Translations under genes and position numbers: made by a program
Notes under the pieces: model-generated
Seen by the model: only the letters and a program-made list of their open reading frames with translations
The model's database searches: none
What the model was told of the DNA's origin: nothing
Virus record (IMG/VR): IMGVR_UViG_3300044225_001034
Location: 1 to 20,284 of that record
Length of the DNA: 20,284 nt
Reading direction: 5' to 3' (one strand)
Source: a virus
Part shown: piece after piece, positions 4,402-18,252 of the stretch
Numbering within the stretch: the first letter of the stretch is position 1
Layout of the letters: the number at the start of each line of letters is the position of its first letter

Positions 4402-7400
4402 ATGACAACATTTAATTATGTAACCTCAGATGGTAAAATCTTAGAGGTAGATACTAAAAATTTATCTGATGAAAGTAAAATAAAACTTAAAGATTTTATT
4501 AAAGAAGATTTAACACTAAAAGAAAATCTAGCACAAGAAGAAATAGAAATGGAAAATAATCCTGTAGGTGTGACAGATTCAGAAACTAAAGAAAAAAAGT
4601 TTGATGATATAGGTACTACACTAGGATTTAGACAACTATATTATGGAGGTCAAGGAGGTTATCACGAAGCATCAGGTAATTTTTTATACCATGGATTAGC
4701 AAATATTGCAGGTATGGGTTTTGATGATAAACAATTAGCACAAGCAAGAGAAGGTATTTATTTAGACCCTAAAGGTCGTAAGTTAGACCCTATCAATAAA
4801 GCAGCTTTAATAACCCGTAATAAATTATTAGATTTAAAAGCTATAAGTTTAAAAAAAGCAAAAGAAAATTTTGATAAAGCACCTGATGATTTTTATACTA
4901 AACTTTATGGTGCTTTTGGTGCAGCTACAGTTCAAATACCTACATATGTAGGTGCTATAGCTTTAACTAAAAATCCTATGGTTGGTATGGGAGTTACAGA
5001 TGCAGTTGTTGCAGCAGACCAAGGTATAAAAGAATCTGTAAAAGCAGGGGCAATGGGTGCAGGAATGGGTTATGCATTAGGTTATTTAAATCAATTTGCT
5101 CCCATAACTAAAATATCTGCAATGGGTACTTTAGGATTTGCATCACCTGCAGAAACATTAGAGGATAGGTTTGTACATGGAATTACTTTTGCATCTTTAT
5201 CTGCTATTGGTCCTATATCAGGAGCAAAAGGATATGCAGAAAAAACTATAGATAAAGTTTTAGATTATAGAAGTAAGAAAAAATTTATACAAGACTTAGA
5301 AAAAAATACCCCCTCTACTGCAAAAGAATTAAATACTAGTATTGACACTTGGAATTTTTTAGCACAAAGAAAAGTACAAATTAAAAATGAATTAGCAGAA
5401 TTAAAAAAGAAAGAAGCAAGGCAAAGAAACGAAGAAAATAAAAAAAAGACTAGAGAAAAAATGGATACTCTTGTATTAGAATTTAAACAAGCTAGTCGTT
5501 CTCAAGGTCAGTTAAAAAAAGTTATAGACCAACTAGATTCTTATTTAGAATTACAAACTAATTTTGTTAATCGAGTAAATAAAGAAGTTGCAGATATTAG
5601 AGAACCTACAGAATTTAGAAATGATGCTGTTATTTTAAAAACTAGAGAAGAAACTATAGTAGATAAAAAAACTAAAAAAGAAAGCACAGTTAAAGTAAAA
5701 TATTTAGAGAGAAAATATAAAGATTTAGACCCAAATATATTAGATAAATTAGGTAGAGTTACACTCCCTCAAGAATTTAATGATAATCCTATAGTTAGAA
5801 AAGTTGTAGCAGAGTATAATACTTTTCGTATTAAAAACGAAGATGCAATCTTAAAAATACTAGACAATCCTAAGTTTACAAAAACTGTAGGGGCTACTGC
5901 TCTTCGCTATGGTAAGTTAGAAGCTAGTGAAGGAGGTATGTTATTTAGATTTAATAGACTATCTCAGAAAGAAAAACAAACATTAGTAGATGGTACATTT
6001 AAAGTAGAAGTAGGATATAATAATTTTATAAAAAGTAGAAAAGCATTTATATCAGAAAAATTAGCAGAAGATACTTCAGGTAATTTAAATGCTAGGATAT
6101 TAAAAAAAGAATATAAAGATACCAGATTTGATAAAGATGATATAGCCACTGATTTTTATTTAAAAGAATTAGGATTTAATGATAAACAAATATTAGCGTA
6201 TAGAGATATAATTAACGGCTTTGAAAAAGTTAGAGAATATTATAATATGCAAATTAAAAAAACAGGTTCTAATACTTCTTTACTACCAAGAAGACCTAAC
6301 TATTTTCCACATATATTTACTGGTACATATAGAGTTTATGTAAATGATAAAAATGGAGTATTAATACAGGCGTTACCTGCGTCTACTAAAGCAGGTGCAA
6401 ACAGATTAAAAAAAAGATTAGAAGAAGAATTAGGTAATGAAGTTATAGTTAATGTAAATAAACCTAATGTAAGTAGATACTCTGATGATGCTGTAGCAGC
6501 TTTTCAAATAGTAACGGAGCATTTATACAGAGGTAAGAAAAAAGAATTAGGTCTTAAAATAAAAGAACTGTCTGATGAAATATATTCTGCAGAAGGATTT
6601 AACAGAAGGAAATTAAAAAGAAGAACAGTAAAAGAAGAATTAGTAAAAGGTTTTTTAGGTTCTGAAGGTAGAAACATATTAGGTGTAAAATCTTCTAGAA
6701 AAGATGTAGATGATTTTAATTTAGCAATTAAATTATATGTTGAAGGTGGTATAAAAGCTGCCAATCACATGGAGTTTAATTTTAGAATAAAACAACTGTT
6801 AGACACACCAATTAGATTTAATGTTAAGTATGGTGAAAAAAATACTATAAGACAACTATATCCCAATGCTGCAGAGTTTGCTGTTAATTATTTAAATAAT
6901 GCTTTAGGTAATGCATTAGCTATAAGAACTTTTGGTAAAAAAAGACAAAAACCTAAAGAGGTTATTGAGTCTATAGAGGACACACTTACTGATGGTTTAA
7001 AAGTTTTACCTCAATTTAGAAATTTGTATACTACTAGTGCTGCATTAGCAAACCATTTTTATTTATTAAGTTTAAATGCGAGATTTGCCTTGGCTCAAGG
7101 TATTCAGCCTTATCAAATGATACCTCATAAACTTGCTCACTTATCTCAATTAGCAGGTATGAACTCAGCAAAGTCACTAGCTGACGCATATATTACAGTT
7201 TTAAAAGTTCAAAAAGAATTAGTTGCTCCTAGCGAATTTAGTAAAAAAGTCATACAAAATGCAGTTAAAAATAGAACTATTAATGATAACTTTTTAAGAG
7301 AGTTTGCAGGTGAAGGCTATTATAAAAAAGGTAAATTCACAGATGTTAAAAATATGAAAGGAAATATTTTGAACATGGCTAGTGGTAGAGCATTAGCATC

Positions 7401-8529
7401 TAACATGGAACAATTTTCTAGATTAAATGCAACATTATTATTTGCACATCATTTAAAAAGACTAGGTGCTAAAGAAGAACTTGCTACCACAAGAGCATGG
7501 GAACTAGCTGATAAATACATGGTTAGATATGATATTGCAGAAAGACCTATTATATTTCAACAATTAGGAACAATAGGTAGAGCCGCAGGTTTATTTAGAA
7601 CATTCCAACATAATTGGTATGCTCAAATGATTGAAGCTATAAAAAATGCAGATAGAGGTGATAGAGCACAGCTAATAGGTTTTATGGGTAGTAATGTTTT
7701 AACTGCAGGATTAATAGGTGCGATAGGTGTTAATGGTGCTGATGCATTAATACAATTAAAAAATAGATTATTTCCTGGTGACCCTACGCCTACATTAAGT
7801 TTGTTTTTACTTCAACAAGGATTGCCAGATTGGTTACTATTTGGAGTACCCTCTAAATTAACTAATATGGACTTGACTGCAACACTTGCAGCACCAAGCC
7901 TACATCCTGGAGATTTTATATCATTTCCGGGAATTGAATTTGGTGTAGGAATATTAAAAGCATCAAGTGCGTTAACTATGTATGGTATAAACTCTTTGAT
8001 GATTGGGGCAGTAGGAGAGCCTTTGAGCATACCCATAGATAAAGGTGAATTAAAAAAACAATTAAAAGCCGTCACACCTAAAGGTATCTTTCATGCTTTT
8101 ATAGAGCAGTTTGTTTTCTCAGATGATAATCCTTTACAGATAACTAATGATAATGCGACATTTCAAAGAGAGTGGGCCGATTGGAAAGCAAGGTGGTTTA
8201 CATCTTACTCTTTAAGAGAATCAAAATATATTAAGTACACATGGTATGGTTCACAATTAGAGAAAGTAGAAAATTTAAGTAAGGATGCATTAATGGATTA
8301 TCTTGCACATAATTCATTTAACTTTGATGAGCCTTTAGTAGTGCCTCAATGGGCATGGGATAAAGCCATGGAGTTAGGATTGACACCTACTAAATTATTT
8401 AAAGGCATACAAACAAGAGTAAAAAATATGAGTGAAAGTGCTATAAGAAAATTATACAAAGGAGAAATGACTCCTAAAAAATCAGAAAAAATAAAAGAAT
8501 TAAATAGAATATTAAATATAAAGGAGTAA
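4402..8529 (+). CDS. Very large internal-virion-type protein (1375 aa)
   Basis: This is the largest gene of the window, with ribosome binding site GAGGTG 4 bases before the ATG. Visible regions are: an acidic N terminus; an Ala/Gly-rich hydrophobic part at about 168-233 that could insert in or cross a membrane; a charged coiled coil at about 292-390; a long mixed central part; and near 1060-1120 a segment GRAAGLFRTFQHNW followed by a hydrophobic Gly/Ala-rich helix (LTAGLIGAIGVNGADAL). That last combination resembles the tail of large phage 'polyvalent' proteins that are packaged and injected with DNA, but the match is from memory and loose. No lysozyme or transglycosylase active-site motif was found. 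The likely role is a core or ejection protein that helps DNA cross the envelope. This is inferred from size, composition and operon position. Confidence 0.65.
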   Translation: MTTFNYVTSDGKILEVDTKNLSDESKIKLKDFIKEDLTLKENLAQEEIEMENNPVGVTDSETKEKKFDDIGTTLGFRQLYYGGQGGYHEASGNFLYHGLANIAGMGFDDKQLAQAREGIYLDPKGRKLDPINKAALITRNKLLDLKAISLKKAKENFDKAPDDFYTKLYGAFGAATVQIPTYVGAIALTKNPMVGMGVTDAVVAADQGIKESVKAGAMGAGMGYALGYLNQFAPITKISAMGTLGFASPAETLEDRFVHGITFASLSAIGPISGAKGYAEKTIDKVLDYRSKKKFIQDLEKNTPSTAKELNTSIDTWNFLAQRKVQIKNELAELKKKEARQRNEENKKKTREKMDTLVLEFKQASRSQGQLKKVIDQLDSYLELQTNFVNRVNKEVADIREPTEFRNDAVILKTREETIVDKKTKKESTVKVKYLERKYKDLDPNILDKLGRVTLPQEFNDNPIVRKVVAEYNTFRIKNEDAILKILDNPKFTKTVGATALRYGKLEASEGGMLFRFNRLSQKEKQTLVDGTFKVEVGYNNFIKSRKAFISEKLAEDTSGNLNARILKKEYKDTRFDKDDIATDFYLKELGFNDKQILAYRDIINGFEKVREYYNMQIKKTGSNTSLLPRRPNYFPHIFTGTYRVYVNDKNGVLIQALPASTKAGANRLKKRLEEELGNEVIVNVNKPNVSRYSDDAVAAFQIVTEHLYRGKKKELGLKIKELSDEIYSAEGFNRRKLKRRTVKEELVKGFLGSEGRNILGVKSSRKDVDDFNLAIKLYVEGGIKAANHMEFNFRIKQLLDTPIRFNVKYGEKNTIRQLYPNAAEFAVNYLNNALGNALAIRTFGKKRQKPKEVIESIEDTLTDGLKVLPQFRNLYTTSAALANHFYLLSLNARFALAQGIQPYQMIPHKLAHLSQLAGMNSAKSLADAYITVLKVQKELVAPSEFSKKVIQNAVKNRTINDNFLREFAGEGYYKKGKFTDVKNMKGNILNMASGRALASNMEQFSRLNATLLFAHHLKRLGAKEELATTRAWELADKYMVRYDIAERPIIFQQLGTIGRAAGLFRTFQHNWYAQMIEAIKNADRGDRAQLIGFMGSNVLTAGLIGAIGVNGADALIQLKNRLFPGDPTPTLSLFLLQQGLPDWLLFGVPSKLTNMDLTATLAAPSLHPGDFISFPGIEFGVGILKASSALTMYGINSLMIGAVGEPLSIPIDKGELKKQLKAVTPKGIFHAFIEQFVFSDDNPLQITNDNATFQREWADWKARWFTSYSLRESKYIKYTWYGSQLEKVENLSKDALMDYLAHNSFNFDEPLVVPQWAWDKAMELGLTPTKLFKGIQTRVKNMSESAIRKLYKGEMTPKKSEKIKELNRILNIKE

Positions 8530-10910: not shown

Positions 10911-11802
10911 GTACTATCTCCTTTGGTTTATTTACTTCTGCATACCAATAATACTTAGGATTTTTGGCCTTAGATTGTTGTTGGGGCAAGTATTCAATAG
11001 TATCACCCCAACATTTATGTTTATAAGGACAATAAGAACAGACAGTACCTAAAACTTTATTACCTGTTTTCTTTTGATAAAATGATTCTTCTTGTAATTC
11101 ATAACATCTTTCAAAAGGTTTATCTTCCATTAATGCTTTTACATTATGATGTACCTTTTCTAATGCTTTCTTTCTATACTCTGTATCATCTTCGGGAGGC
11201 TGACTAACTAACATTTCACCTGTAGCTTTGTTGACTACAATCCAACCACCAAAGGGTTTACCTGTAGCCTCTGAGTATAAATATCCTTGTGATAAATAAC
11301 CAAAGACATCATCCTCTGCTATCTTGTGAAAGCCACCACCACTTTCTCCAAACTTTTTTTCAAACGCAAAAGGTGAAGCAGATTTTATATCATAAACTTT
11401 ATCATCTATAATGATATCATATGTACCTTTCATGTCAAAAAATTCTGTATTTAATTTTACTTTACCTTGAACGCCATCAATCTTTGATTTAACTGCTCTC
11501 AGTAACATAACTACAACCGCTTCTATTATATCCCCAAATAAATTTCTTAACTTAAAATTATAATTTTCATAACTAATGATACTATCTTTGCCCGAATACT
11601 TTTTATCCATTTGTAATTGACATAGTGGTTTACCTATGTTAGACATTCGGATTCTAAACTCTGATTCTCTTTTGTCTGTAAATTGTTTTCTTATTGCTTG
11701 TTCACATTCTTGTTTAAACTTTTCTATAATAGGTTTAGGTATAGCGACAGGCTCTCGCTGAGCCTGTGCTAAAAATGATTTTACTTCTTCTAAGAAAGTC
11801 AA
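10903..11802 (-). CDS. Cas4/RecB-like PD-(D/E)XK exonuclease with predicted Fe-S cluster
   Basis: The nuclease motifs are visible in order: G90-xxx-E94 (LFGDIIEA), D129 in KGTYDIII, D138-I-K140 in VYDIKSA, and Q172-xxx-Y176 in SQGYLY, the RecB-family signature. Four cysteines are placed as in Cas4 and AddB: C61 before the nuclease core, and C255, C258 and C264 after it (CSYCPYKHKC). They would hold a 4Fe-4S cluster. Such phage enzymes resect DNA ends or degrade host DNA, so a recombination or nucleotide-recycling role is likely. The start is TTG at 11802, overlapping the TGA of the binding-protein gene as TTGA with AAGGA upstream. It is not part of a CRISPR locus here. Confidence 0.85.
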   Translation of the reverse strand: MTFLEEVKSFLAQAQREPVAIPKPIIEKFKQECEQAIRKQFTDKRESEFRIRMSNIGKPLCQLQMDKKYSGKDSIISYENYNFKLRNLFGDIIEAVVVMLLRAVKSKIDGVQGKVKLNTEFFDMKGTYDIIIDDKVYDIKSASPFAFEKKFGESGGGFHKIAEDDVFGYLSQGYLYSEATGKPFGGWIVVNKATGEMLVSQPPEDDTEYRKKALEKVHHNVKALMEDKPFERCYELQEESFYQKKTGNKVLGTVCSYCPYKHKCWGDTIEYLPQQQSKAKNPKYYWYAEVNKPKEIVHD

Positions 11803-12623
11803 GCGGTAACTTCCTTCATTATTTCATCATCTAAAATATCTTCTGCAGTCACTTCGCTTTTCTTTGCTTTACTATGCTCTGCTTTGACATAATCATTTTC
11901 TTGTTTTACATATTCTAAGAAATCTTTTAGTATTTCTTTATCAGTATCAGAAAATTTTACATCTTTATTTGCATCTTTAATTTTTGCAGTAAAGTAAGTT
12001 ACACTACCTTTAGTATGTTTTTCTGTTCCATTAAAATCTAAAACAGTATTATACATAATCTTATTTCTTTTAGATAGACTTTTTAATTGGTCACCAATAG
12101 GTAAAAAGTTTACACCTCTAACTCTGTATAGGACTGCCTCTTCTGTAATCGTGACATCCTGCCCTTTAGAGGTTTTACCTTTTGCAGATACCACGCCAAA
12201 TACATTTCTATAACAAGTAACCTTATCCTGTTCTATTTTAGAAGCAGGGTCTAAGTCTTCTCGTAATGCTTTAGGTACACTACCACATGCATCAGTTCCA
12301 TTCGTATCGGGTTTGGCATCAGACCAACTCGTGAACATAACAGATTTATAATTGTTATCTTCATTCTCTTCATCGTATTTATTATATTGGAAAGTATTTA
12401 GAAAGGGTCTAAATGATACTTTCTCTGCAAAGACAAGTCCGTGTTCCTGACTGTCTATTTTATATAGACCTCTTTTAATCAGATTACCTTCACTGTCTTC
12501 GGTATCGTAGTTAATTGATAGCCTTGATAGGGAAGAGCCACCCGACTCTACATCTTGACCTAACATAGCCATCACTTTATCGTTGGACATATTATCTATA
12601 TCCGCTAGTACTTCGTTTGACAT
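11799..12623 (-). CDS. Probable single-stranded DNA-binding protein (274 aa)
   Basis: It is an acidic soluble protein with a mostly beta-type sequence in the middle (about 35-200) and a charged C-terminal region: a Lys-rich stretch, then an acidic end (AEDILDDEIMKEV). An acidic C-terminal tail and a position between polymerase and recombination nuclease are typical of phage ssDNA-binding proteins such as T7 gp2.5. I see no OB-fold signature that I could call certain, so the name rests on context and composition. It has its own strong promoter and a strong ribosome binding site (AAGGAGG, 6 bases before ATG), which suits a protein needed in large amounts. Another replication-accessory role is the main alternative. 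Confidence 0.55.
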   Translation of the reverse strand: MSNEVLADIDNMSNDKVMAMLGQDVESGGSSLSRLSINYDTEDSEGNLIKRGLYKIDSQEHGLVFAEKVSFRPFLNTFQYNKYDEENEDNNYKSVMFTSWSDAKPDTNGTDACGSVPKALREDLDPASKIEQDKVTCYRNVFGVVSAKGKTSKGQDVTITEEAVLYRVRGVNFLPIGDQLKSLSKRNKIMYNTVLDFNGTEKHTKGSVTYFTAKIKDANKDVKFSDTDKEILKDFLEYVKQENDYVKAEHSKAKKSEVTAEDILDDEIMKEVTA

Positions 12624-12647: not shown

Positions 12648-12676
12648 ATTATATCATTAAACTGTGGATAAGTCAA
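12648..12676 (-). promoter_or_regulatory. Strong sigma70-like promoter for the binding-protein gene
   Basis: On the leftward strand TTGACT (12676-12671) is followed by a 17-base spacer and TATAAT (12653-12648), 11 of 12 consensus positions. The start of transcription would be near 12641, giving a leader of about 18 bases that contains the AAGGAGG ribosome binding site. The -35 box lies inside the last codons of the polymerase gene and the spacer contains its stop codon. Confidence 0.8.
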
Positions 12677-14693
12677 GCCAATTTATACCTTTTTTTATCT
12701 CAAAGTCTAATGGAACATTTAACTCACAATCATATCTATTTAATAGTGAGTCTTTTATATTACTAAATCCTGTCTTTATAACACTAATAACATGATGTAT
12801 TTCATCGGGATGTGTATCTAATATTACAGAATCATGGACAGTATTTATAATTAAACTTTTCATTTTTCTTTTTCTTAGTAACTCCCAAACATTAATACAT
12901 GCTATTGGTACTATGTCTGCCGTAGCAAACCCTTGGACAGGATAATTTTTTATAGCCGTAGCTTGTGTAGTAGAGCCGTCTTTTCTTCTATAAACATTTG
13001 GAAAATAATATTCTCTACCACTAGGTAGTTTTACTATCTTTGTTTTGTATGCTCTATCTTGTAACACTTGATGCCACTCTGCAATTTGTGGATATTTTTT
13101 TAAAAACTTCTCGTAGTATTCTCTTTCTTTTTTCTTACCCATCATGCCACCATACAAAGGTTTAAATGTATGTGCCTTTGCAGTTTGTCTATCACATCCT
13201 ATAACATCTGCAGTATACTGATGAACATCTATACCATCCTCTATATCTTTCATGCCTTGTTTATCTTGTGCTAAAAATACTGCAGTTCTAAATTCTAACT
13301 GAGCAAAATCTACTTCTAGTATTTGTCCATTTTCCCACCTAGACTGTATAACTTTTTTTACAGGAAACTTATCACCTCTAGGCATGTTTTGGAAATTAGG
13401 TTTAGAACTAGATAGTCTTCCTGTAGCAGTTATGTGTTGATTAAAAGAAGGATGTAATATATTATCATGATTAGTATTATCTCTTATGCCTGTTATAAAA
13501 GTATTAAGATAAGTTTCTAATGCACCAAACCTAACAATAGAATCTACAAACTCTTTTAATGTACCTTCAGCATAAATACCTATTCTATTTAAAGTTTCTT
13601 TATCAGTTTTAAAACCGCCTTGTGCCACATCTTGTACACTATTAGCCCTCCAATTAAATCCTGCTTTAGCTTCGGTCTCAATAAATAACATACCTTCACC
13701 TTTACACTTAGGACACTTAGATAACTTAGCAAAAGGACTACCATCTTTTTTTATTTTTCTGACATGTCCTACGCCTTTACACACATCACATTGTTGTGCT
13801 ATTGTTTTATACATAGGGTCTGTATATTTATTTACTAACTCTTGAAATGCTCTATCTGTCATTCTAGGTCTTCTCTTAGGTCTTCTCGTTCTTTTATCTA
13901 TACCTATGTTAAACATACTTGTCCAAATATTTTTGTCTTGTACTTTTCTAGAGTAAATTACTTTAGACAAATCTTCTGTAGAAGATAAATTAATCTTTGT
14001 ATCACCCATAACTTGAGCAATAATTTTTTCTATCTTACTTTTTAACTTGTAGTATTCTTGTGTTAATTCTTTCTCAACACTTTCTAAGTCTTGTAAATTA
14101 ATATAGTTTCCATTACATTCCATATCTATTAACACTTGTAGAAAATCATTCATCAAATCTCTAGTTGGTAATAGTCCTTTGTTTGCAGGTAAATTATAAA
14201 ATCTTACTTGTGTAAGATATAACTCTTTAGTTATTTTAACATCTTGCCTACCATAAGTTTCTAAATGTTCTATTGGAATTTCATCAATACCATATCCGTC
14301 TTCCATATATGTAGCTAGTATATCAGATTTTAAACTAATATTATGTCTTCTACAACATTCTTTTAGAGACAATGATTTATCTTTATTACCTCTCATAATA
14401 ATATACTCTGCTAACATTGTATCATATAACTTACCATTGTATGTAAATCCAAACTCATACATCCACGACATATCAAATTTTAAATTATGTCCTATGATTA
14501 AATCAGATTCATCTAGTATCTCTTGAACTCTTTGTTTATTTTGTTTTATCTGTTCTACATCTTTAACATCTTTATGATAAAAGAAATAGTACTCATCATT
14601 AATACCAATGCTTACTAATCTATTCTCATAGTTAAAAGGTGAAGGGTCTCCTTCGTTACTTACTGTAGTTTCTATGTCTAGTGTTGTTATCAC
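12657..14693 (-). CDS. polA: Family-A DNA polymerase with 3'-5' exonuclease and DnaJ-like zinc insertion
   Basis: The exonuclease domain shows LDIETT (D6, E8), IIGHNLKFD (N70, D74) and YGRQD (Y147, D151). The polymerase domain shows TATGRLSSSKPNFQNMPRG (422-440), motif A EVDFAQLEFR with D462, motif B RQTAKAHTFKPLYG (R502, K506, F510, Y514) and motif C TVHDS with D621. Residues 302-334 form an inserted zinc module with CDVCKGVG and CPKCKGEG, preceded by a very basic patch (RTRRPKRRPR, about 268-277). It lies in the thumb region between INLSST (235-240) and the conserved helix after FNWRANS. Such a DnaJ-type insert is published for phage HMO-2011. The start codon is GTG, with AAGGA 6 bases upstream; no 5'-3' nuclease domain is present. 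Residue 510 corresponds to E. coli F762. Confidence 0.95.
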   Translation of the reverse strand: MITTLDIETTVSNEGDPSPFNYENRLVSIGINDEYYFFYHKDVKDVEQIKQNKQRVQEILDESDLIIGHNLKFDMSWMYEFGFTYNGKLYDTMLAEYIIMRGNKDKSLSLKECCRRHNISLKSDILATYMEDGYGIDEIPIEHLETYGRQDVKITKELYLTQVRFYNLPANKGLLPTRDLMNDFLQVLIDMECNGNYINLQDLESVEKELTQEYYKLKSKIEKIIAQVMGDTKINLSSTEDLSKVIYSRKVQDKNIWTSMFNIGIDKRTRRPKRRPRMTDRAFQELVNKYTDPMYKTIAQQCDVCKGVGHVRKIKKDGSPFAKLSKCPKCKGEGMLFIETEAKAGFNWRANSVQDVAQGGFKTDKETLNRIGIYAEGTLKEFVDSIVRFGALETYLNTFITGIRDNTNHDNILHPSFNQHITATGRLSSSKPNFQNMPRGDKFPVKKVIQSRWENGQILEVDFAQLEFRTAVFLAQDKQGMKDIEDGIDVHQYTADVIGCDRQTAKAHTFKPLYGGMMGKKKEREYYEKFLKKYPQIAEWHQVLQDRAYKTKIVKLPSGREYYFPNVYRRKDGSTTQATAIKNYPVQGFATADIVPIACINVWELLRKRKMKSLIINTVHDSVILDTHPDEIHHVISVIKTGFSNIKDSLLNRYDCELNVPLDFEIKKGINWLDLSTV
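14201..14218. repeat. Palindrome ATCTTAC-N4-GTAAGAT inside the polymerase gene
   Basis: Perfect 7-base inverted repeat with loop TTGT. The same stem occurs between genes at 15891-15908 and, one base pair shorter, at 19930-19944. It lies in the coding part of the exonuclease domain. Confidence 0.7.
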
Positions 14694-17830: not shown

Positions 17831-18016
17831 TCAGAAGTTATTTTCATTAGCCAAAGACACATAAGTTACTTCTCTATCTGTTTCTGCGTCATGTAAAGGT
17901 GAAGTTAAACCCTCTAATAAATATTTATCTTTAGCTTCTTCACCACTTACTGCGTCAACAAAATACTTTTTAGTTACTGTTTCCTTAACATATACTACAT
18001 ACTTTTTGGTTTCCAT
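17831..18016 (-). CDS. Small early protein, weakly DpnD/PcfM-like (61 aa)
   Basis: The protein begins METKKYVVYVKETVTKKYF, followed by VDAVSGEEAKDKYLLEG, then an acidic section and VTYVSLANENNF. The strand-strand-helix-strand pattern (KYVVYVKET, YFVDA, GEEAKDKY) recalls the small DpnD/PcfM-like family of phages and plasmids, whose function is unknown. I give this only as a weak resemblance. The start overlaps the preceding stop (TAATG) and has GAAAGGA upstream. It is the last gene of the short early operon before the primase promoter. Confidence 0.6.
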   Translation of the reverse strand: METKKYVVYVKETVTKKYFVDAVSGEEAKDKYLLEGLTSPLHDAETDREVTYVSLANENNF

Positions 18017-18252
18017 TATATTATCCTTTCTTTTCTAACTTGTTCTATAAGTGTATCTTCTATATCTCTCTTCATAGTTTCAAGATACTCATCATCTATC
18101 AGATACTTATCGTCTTGTGGGTCATACTCCTCTAGCCAAGAACCATGTCCTTCACATACAGGACACTCATCTATCTCATCGTTCTTGTCACCCCAAGCTA
18201 TATAACCTTTGCCATTACATTCGGGGCATTCTACTTTTATTTTTTGTTTCAT
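18016..18252 (-). CDS. DnaJ-type zinc-finger small protein (78 aa)
   Basis: Two CxxCxGxG motifs are visible: CPECNGKG (9-16) and CPVCEGHG (30-37), with an acidic loop between them. This is the repeat of the DnaJ central domain, which binds zinc. The remaining 40 residues are acidic and helical (EEYDPQDDKYLIDDEYLETM), ending basic. There is no J domain, so it is not a chaperone partner in the usual sense. Small proteins of this kind are frequent in phages and their role is not known. The same motif is inserted in the polymerase of this genome. Overlaps with both neighbours (ATGA, TAATG) and the AGAAAGGA site show it is translated. Confidence 0.8.
   Translation of the reverse strand: MKQKIKVECPECNGKGYIAWGDKNDEIDECPVCEGHGSWLEEYDPQDDKYLIDDEYLETMKRDIEDTLIEQVRKERII

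Follow-up and report, generated by a model that had tools for sequence, protein, structure and literature searches.

The window, i.e., the whole stretch of 20,284 nucleotides analysed here, carries on its minus strand (12657..14693) a gene with a GTG start for a family A DNA polymerase of 678 aa, composed of a 3'-5' exonuclease domain and a polymerase domain. Pfam matched the protein to DNA_pol_A with E 6.4e-52 (PF00476, 177 bits against a curated cut-off of 34.3, which places it in family A) and to DNA_pol_A_exo1 with E 4.1e-9 (PF01612, 36.9 bits against a curated cut-off of 23.6). The AlphaFold2 (AF2) model was built with 61 sequences and had a mean pLDDT of 92. The top Foldseek match was Klenow 8oo6 (E 7e-28), and the PolA fold was recognized through Klenow and Bst with E about 1e-26 or better. 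The polymerase is 53% identical to that of HTVC033P and 40% to that of HMO-2011, and it therefore belongs to the HMO-2011-type group; it shares one tree with HMO-2011, CRP-3 and HTVC033P. Phages of the HMO-2011 type belong to the dominant phages of the sea.

A partial DnaJ domain with two CXXCXGXG motifs, lying between the exonuclease and polymerase domains, is used as the criterion of HMO-2011-type polymerases in the relevant passages of PMC6918029 and PMC9038755 and likewise of PMC8528129. The polymerase of the window has the two motifs and the partial domain in the position described in PMC9038755. The same order of exonuclease, partial DnaJ and polymerase domains is found in HMO-2011, HTVC033P, CRP-1, CRP-3 and others, and their module does not differ essentially from the one studied here. 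As to the function of the insertion, those passages of the three papers offer nothing beyond a comparison with DnaJ. The insertion is thus a published hallmark of the group; the earlier note had already linked it to HMO-2011 and called its function not established. New here are the invariance of the cysteines, the exact loop in which the module is placed, the separability of a basic patch and a candidate partner.

The candidate partner is the product of the gene adjoining the polymerase gene downstream (11799..12623, minus strand), an SSB-like protein of 274 aa whose C-terminal tail is acidic. This gene is kept across the group and codes for a conserved protein of no assigned family. Its AF2 model (pLDDT 89.8) was matched by Foldseek to viral proteins, two of which are annotated as single-stranded DNA-binding protein (E 2e-4 and 1e-3). 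A fold search of the PDB gave no significant match for it, SsbB being a weak one. Across the relatives, the last 20 residues have a mean charge of -7, and the charge is -2 or lower in 97% of them.

On the opposite arm, the structural ORF of 1375 aa (4402-8529, plus strand) matches no HMO-2011-type phage; its only match is an Alcaligenes phage (24% over 45%). The window may therefore combine a replication module of the HMO-2011 type with a structural module of another kind. A protein of 78 aa (18016-18252, minus strand) has two knuckles of the CxxCxGxG type, CPECNGKG and CPVCEGHG, with weak Anti-TRAP and DnaJ-type matches, and no match to it was found in 50,697 phage records.

The cysteine module and the basic patch

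Two CxxCxGxG knuckles of the polymerase hold C302, C305, C327 and C330, exactly as the earlier note had read them from the letters. The codons from C302 to C330 span 13704-13790 on the minus strand, and the whole module, residues 302-334, occupies 13692-13790. The range of 13700-13793 given before covers the four cysteines, but its start at 13700 cuts off the last glycine of the module. Knuckle 1 is CDVCKGVG with C302 and C305 (13767..13790), knuckle 2 is CPKCKGEG with C327 and C330 (13692..13715), and between them lies the basic loop HVRKIKKDGSPFAKLSK, residues 310-326 (13716..13766), all on the minus strand. The pair of knuckles is not a product of chance, since none of 20,000 shufflings of the 678-aa protein gave two spaced CxxCxGxG motifs.

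Relatives of the polymerase were gathered without requiring cysteines, which gave 241 full-length proteins with identity down to about 40%. Both CxxC pairs are present in all 241. The interval from first cysteine to first cysteine is 25 residues in 240 of them and 37 in phage CRP-738, the only one with a 12-residue expansion between the knuckles, which is very basic (loop net charge +9). For conservation, the relatives were clustered at 80% identity, which gave 64 clusters. The four cysteines of the module are conserved in 100% of the clusters and are the only invariant cysteines of the polymerase, the six others being conserved in 8-64%. Such invariance fits the presumed binding of one zinc by the four cysteines.

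The inter-knuckle loop is itself a basic element of the module. Lysine or arginine stands at position 313 in 92% and at position 315 in 97% of the clusters, G318 is conserved in 100%, and each of the 206 relatives tested has a loop net charge between +1 and +7. The insert as a whole carries a positive net charge in all clusters, ranging from +3 to +22 with a mean of +11.6, and the whole protein has a mean charge of +1.8. The density of conserved lysine and arginine in the insert is not significantly higher than in the rest of the protein (6/111, p = 0.28).

The cysteine-rich domain of DnaJ has CxxCxGxG knuckles with an interval similar to that of the module. Among solved structures, the module profile matches this domain best (1exk, E 1.6e-5), over its second and third motifs, and PF00684 is weakly matched by 58 of the 61 members. 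In the polymerase of the window, PF00684 scores 25 bits, below the gathering cut-off of 32.7, and Pfam found no J domain, the HPD-bearing part that stimulates DnaK, so that the protein does not qualify as a DnaJ / Hsp40 co-chaperone. Assignment to the DnaJ cysteine-rich domain was rejected on account of this score and of the two motifs in place of four. Because of the missing motifs, the module would hold at most one zinc as against two in DnaJ. Judged by sequence, it is DnaJ-like in its knuckles and is not a DnaJ domain. A search of the 50,697 phage records with the module alone returned only HMO-2011-type polymerases and one insignificant match.

The basic patch KRTRRPKRRPR, residues 267-277 (13863..13895, minus strand), was previously described as eight Arg/Lys in ten residues. 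The basic stretch is there, and its best 10-residue window, RTRRPKRRPR, has 7 of them; eight are reached in the 11 residues of KRTRRPKRRPR. The patch is clade-specific and dispensable. The polymerase of the window has the longer basic patch, which is missing in HMO-2011 and CRP-1; altogether it is absent from 27 of the 64 clusters, all within the HMO-2011/CRP-1 clade, which on the tree amounts to one change. The earlier treatment of zinc module and patch as one element had to be abandoned, because the patch is missing in these 27 clusters, the cysteines in none. Unlike the pairing with the patch, the basic element inside the module does hold.

Place of the module in the thumb

The canonical thumb helix H1 was located at the segment INLSSTEDLSKVIY, residues 234-247 (13953..13994, minus strand), which begins with the INLSST noted before. 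This segment was paired by phmmer with Klenow NLSSTKQLQTILFEK and by hhalign with FNxxSxxHLSALIFGG of other phage polymerases. Residues 239-247 are helical in the AF2 model, N235 is conserved in 95% and S238 in 100%. The order of elements in the model is helix 200-229, H1 239-247, helix 254-260, the basic loop, the insert helix 280-290 (13824..13856), strand 291-301 (13791..13823), the module, strand 335-343 (13665..13691) and helix 365-374 (13572..13601), the coordinates again being those of the minus strand. The last of these is the next thumb helix, which opens the canonical stretch after the insert, as seen by Pfam, phmmer, AF2 and spacing. The two strands probably pair into a beta stalk, as their predicted secondary structure suggests. 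The placement of the module between INLSST and the later thumb helix was therefore correct. The earlier reading as a zinc-type module within the thumb is supported, and the confident AF2 model puts it between two strands downstream of H1.

From H1 to the next helix there are 128 residues in the polymerase of the window, 30 in Klenow and 29 in T7, and the insert is accordingly assigned to the loop after H1. The module is a two-knuckle finger at the end of a roughly 100-residue insert in this loop. The ENG motif and H1 are 43 residues apart here, as against 38 in Klenow and 107 in T7. The thioredoxin-binding domain of T7 gp5 is likewise a basic thumb insertion in a family A phage polymerase, but it lies in the other loop, between H and H1, and this slot is Klenow-like in length in the polymerase of the window. 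Location of the module in the T7 thioredoxin slot (the earlier note had put both in the same region) was thus rejected. The insert has no similarity to the T7 domain either (hhalign probability 0.7%).

MAFFT and whole-protein hhalign against T7 aligned T7 FNPSSR to a second, weaker segment, FNWRANS, in alignments without a confidence value. Assignment of H1 to this segment was rejected, as the N-x-x-S motif is kept in the first segment, whereas the second shows no such conservation. The first segment is H1 because N235 and S238 are conserved, the Klenow sequence and the phiKT, ICP2 and MEP402 profiles align there and the spacings agree; it also forms the longer helix of the two in the AF2 model. 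The second, NLSST-like segment FNWRANSVQDVAQGGF, residues 346-361 (13611-13658, minus strand), follows the module and may be a degenerate copy of the H1 segment.

In Klenow, the loop that follows H1 forms the thumb tip; there it has no cysteines and spans 30 residues instead of 128. Extra-long inserts are found in this loop in the polymerases of phiKT, ICP2 and MEP402, with spans of 67-125 residues (125 in phiKT and 72 in ICP2, both without cysteines). In place of the cysteine knuckles, these inserts have the motif Y/F-K-x-G-x3-4-G-E/Q-x-K-x-K (the YKxGxxxGExKxK form). The loop is therefore a recurrent insertion site.

Possible function of the module

The position at the thumb tip, the constant positive charge and the neighbouring gene for an acidic-tailed SSB-like protein fit a role in processivity or in partner binding. 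We tentatively favour, at somewhat less than an even chance, a module acting as a zinc-stapled extension of the thumb tip that grips duplex DNA. Zinc on the four cysteines would lock the finger, and the inter-knuckle lysines K313, K315 and K316 would make contact, behind the active site, with the backbone phosphates of the product duplex. The finger would then extend the grip of the thumb, and DNA affinity and processivity would both rise with no need to borrow a factor, the basic patch possibly adding grip in some lineages. The thumb mutant of Minnick 1996 is reportedly a deletion of Klenow residues 590-613, which by alignment numbering are within the loop after H1. Thumb truncation lowers both processivity and fidelity (PMC10061031).

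The T7 domain requires host thioredoxin, whereas the module has its own predicted zinc-type site. The absence of a thioredoxin gene nearby, pointed out earlier, was borne out by PF00085, which was found neither in the window nor in the complete HMO-2011 genome. T7 relies on the thioredoxin of its host, and for that reason the missing phage gene says little. Against a grip on DNA speaks the fact that DnaJ-type knuckles bind protein more often than DNA, and so does the density of conserved lysine and arginine, which is not significantly raised in the insert; a charge so strongly positive would suit an acidic partner protein as well.

By analogy, the module could instead serve to dock another replisome component, for which the acidic tail of the downstream SSB-like protein is the likeliest candidate; this is the main rival reading, held to be somewhat less probable than the grip on DNA. 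The neighbour gene kept across the group, the viral proteins annotated as SSB among its fold matches and the inter-knuckle loop, positive in all relatives tested, argue for it. In T7, the basic thioredoxin-binding domain binds the tail of gp2.5. Such a contact of the T7 SSB C-terminal tail with the thioredoxin-binding domain (PMC7699545) makes a contact of the SSB-like tail with the module conceivable, and a contact between thumb tip and SSB is predicted in another family A polymerase (PMC10061031). However, SSB tails bind many proteins, and the SSB-like protein itself lacks a significant PDB fold match. Nor do patch and tail co-vary as simple partners: it is the clade lacking the patch whose tail is the more acidic (-9.7 vs -5.1, a comparison confounded by relatedness), which is the opposite sign to that of a partnership. 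Co-variation of patch and tail was thus rejected, and the patch is unlikely to be the binder of the tail.

The zinc site might also be purely structural, capping a hairpin that stabilizes or rigidifies the enlarged thumb without making any contact of its own. The invariance of cysteines and glycines amid otherwise variable residues is consistent with this, as are the long cysteine-free inserts of phiKT and ICP2 in the same loop. But the inter-knuckle loop keeps its length and its positive charge, including that at K315, which exceeds the need of a passive cap, and this explanation appears improbable. A DnaJ-like chaperone element recruiting host DnaK or client proteins might be suggested by the comparison with DnaJ and lambda replication in the phage papers and by the matches to 1exk and PF00684, but it is very hard to sustain with only two of the four motifs, a score below the cut-off and no J domain found by Pfam, which DnaK activation needs.

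An inbuilt grip on DNA, if confirmed, would be a second, thioredoxin-independent route to processivity for a family A polymerase, and the finger would be a portable part, graftable like the T7 domain, which has been grafted onto Pol I. It is conceivable, although we would not expect it, that family A phage polymerases have arrived at processivity two or more times, making use of different thumb loops: T7 through an H-H1 insert borrowing host thioredoxin, the HMO-2011 type through a zinc finger after H1 that is self-contained, and other lineages through cysteine-free basic inserts there. The precise loop, the invariant finger separable from an optional patch and the candidate partner turn the vague label of 'DnaJ domain' into tests by point mutants.

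Several observations concern the polymerases used for comparison. The family A polymerase is annotated as two separate ORFs in ICP2_2013_A_Haiti, MEP402 and ctOsX528, and in the latter two a small ORF lies between these. In Stenotrophomonas phage StenR_269, a gene with a thioredoxin domain (29-295 of that locus) lies directly upstream of the polymerase, which has no T7-like insert (spacings 37 and 37). Polymerases of the HMO-2011 type also occur on contigs filed as bacterial or archaeal genomes (single-cell and MAG records), which are likely phage contigs binned with their hosts.
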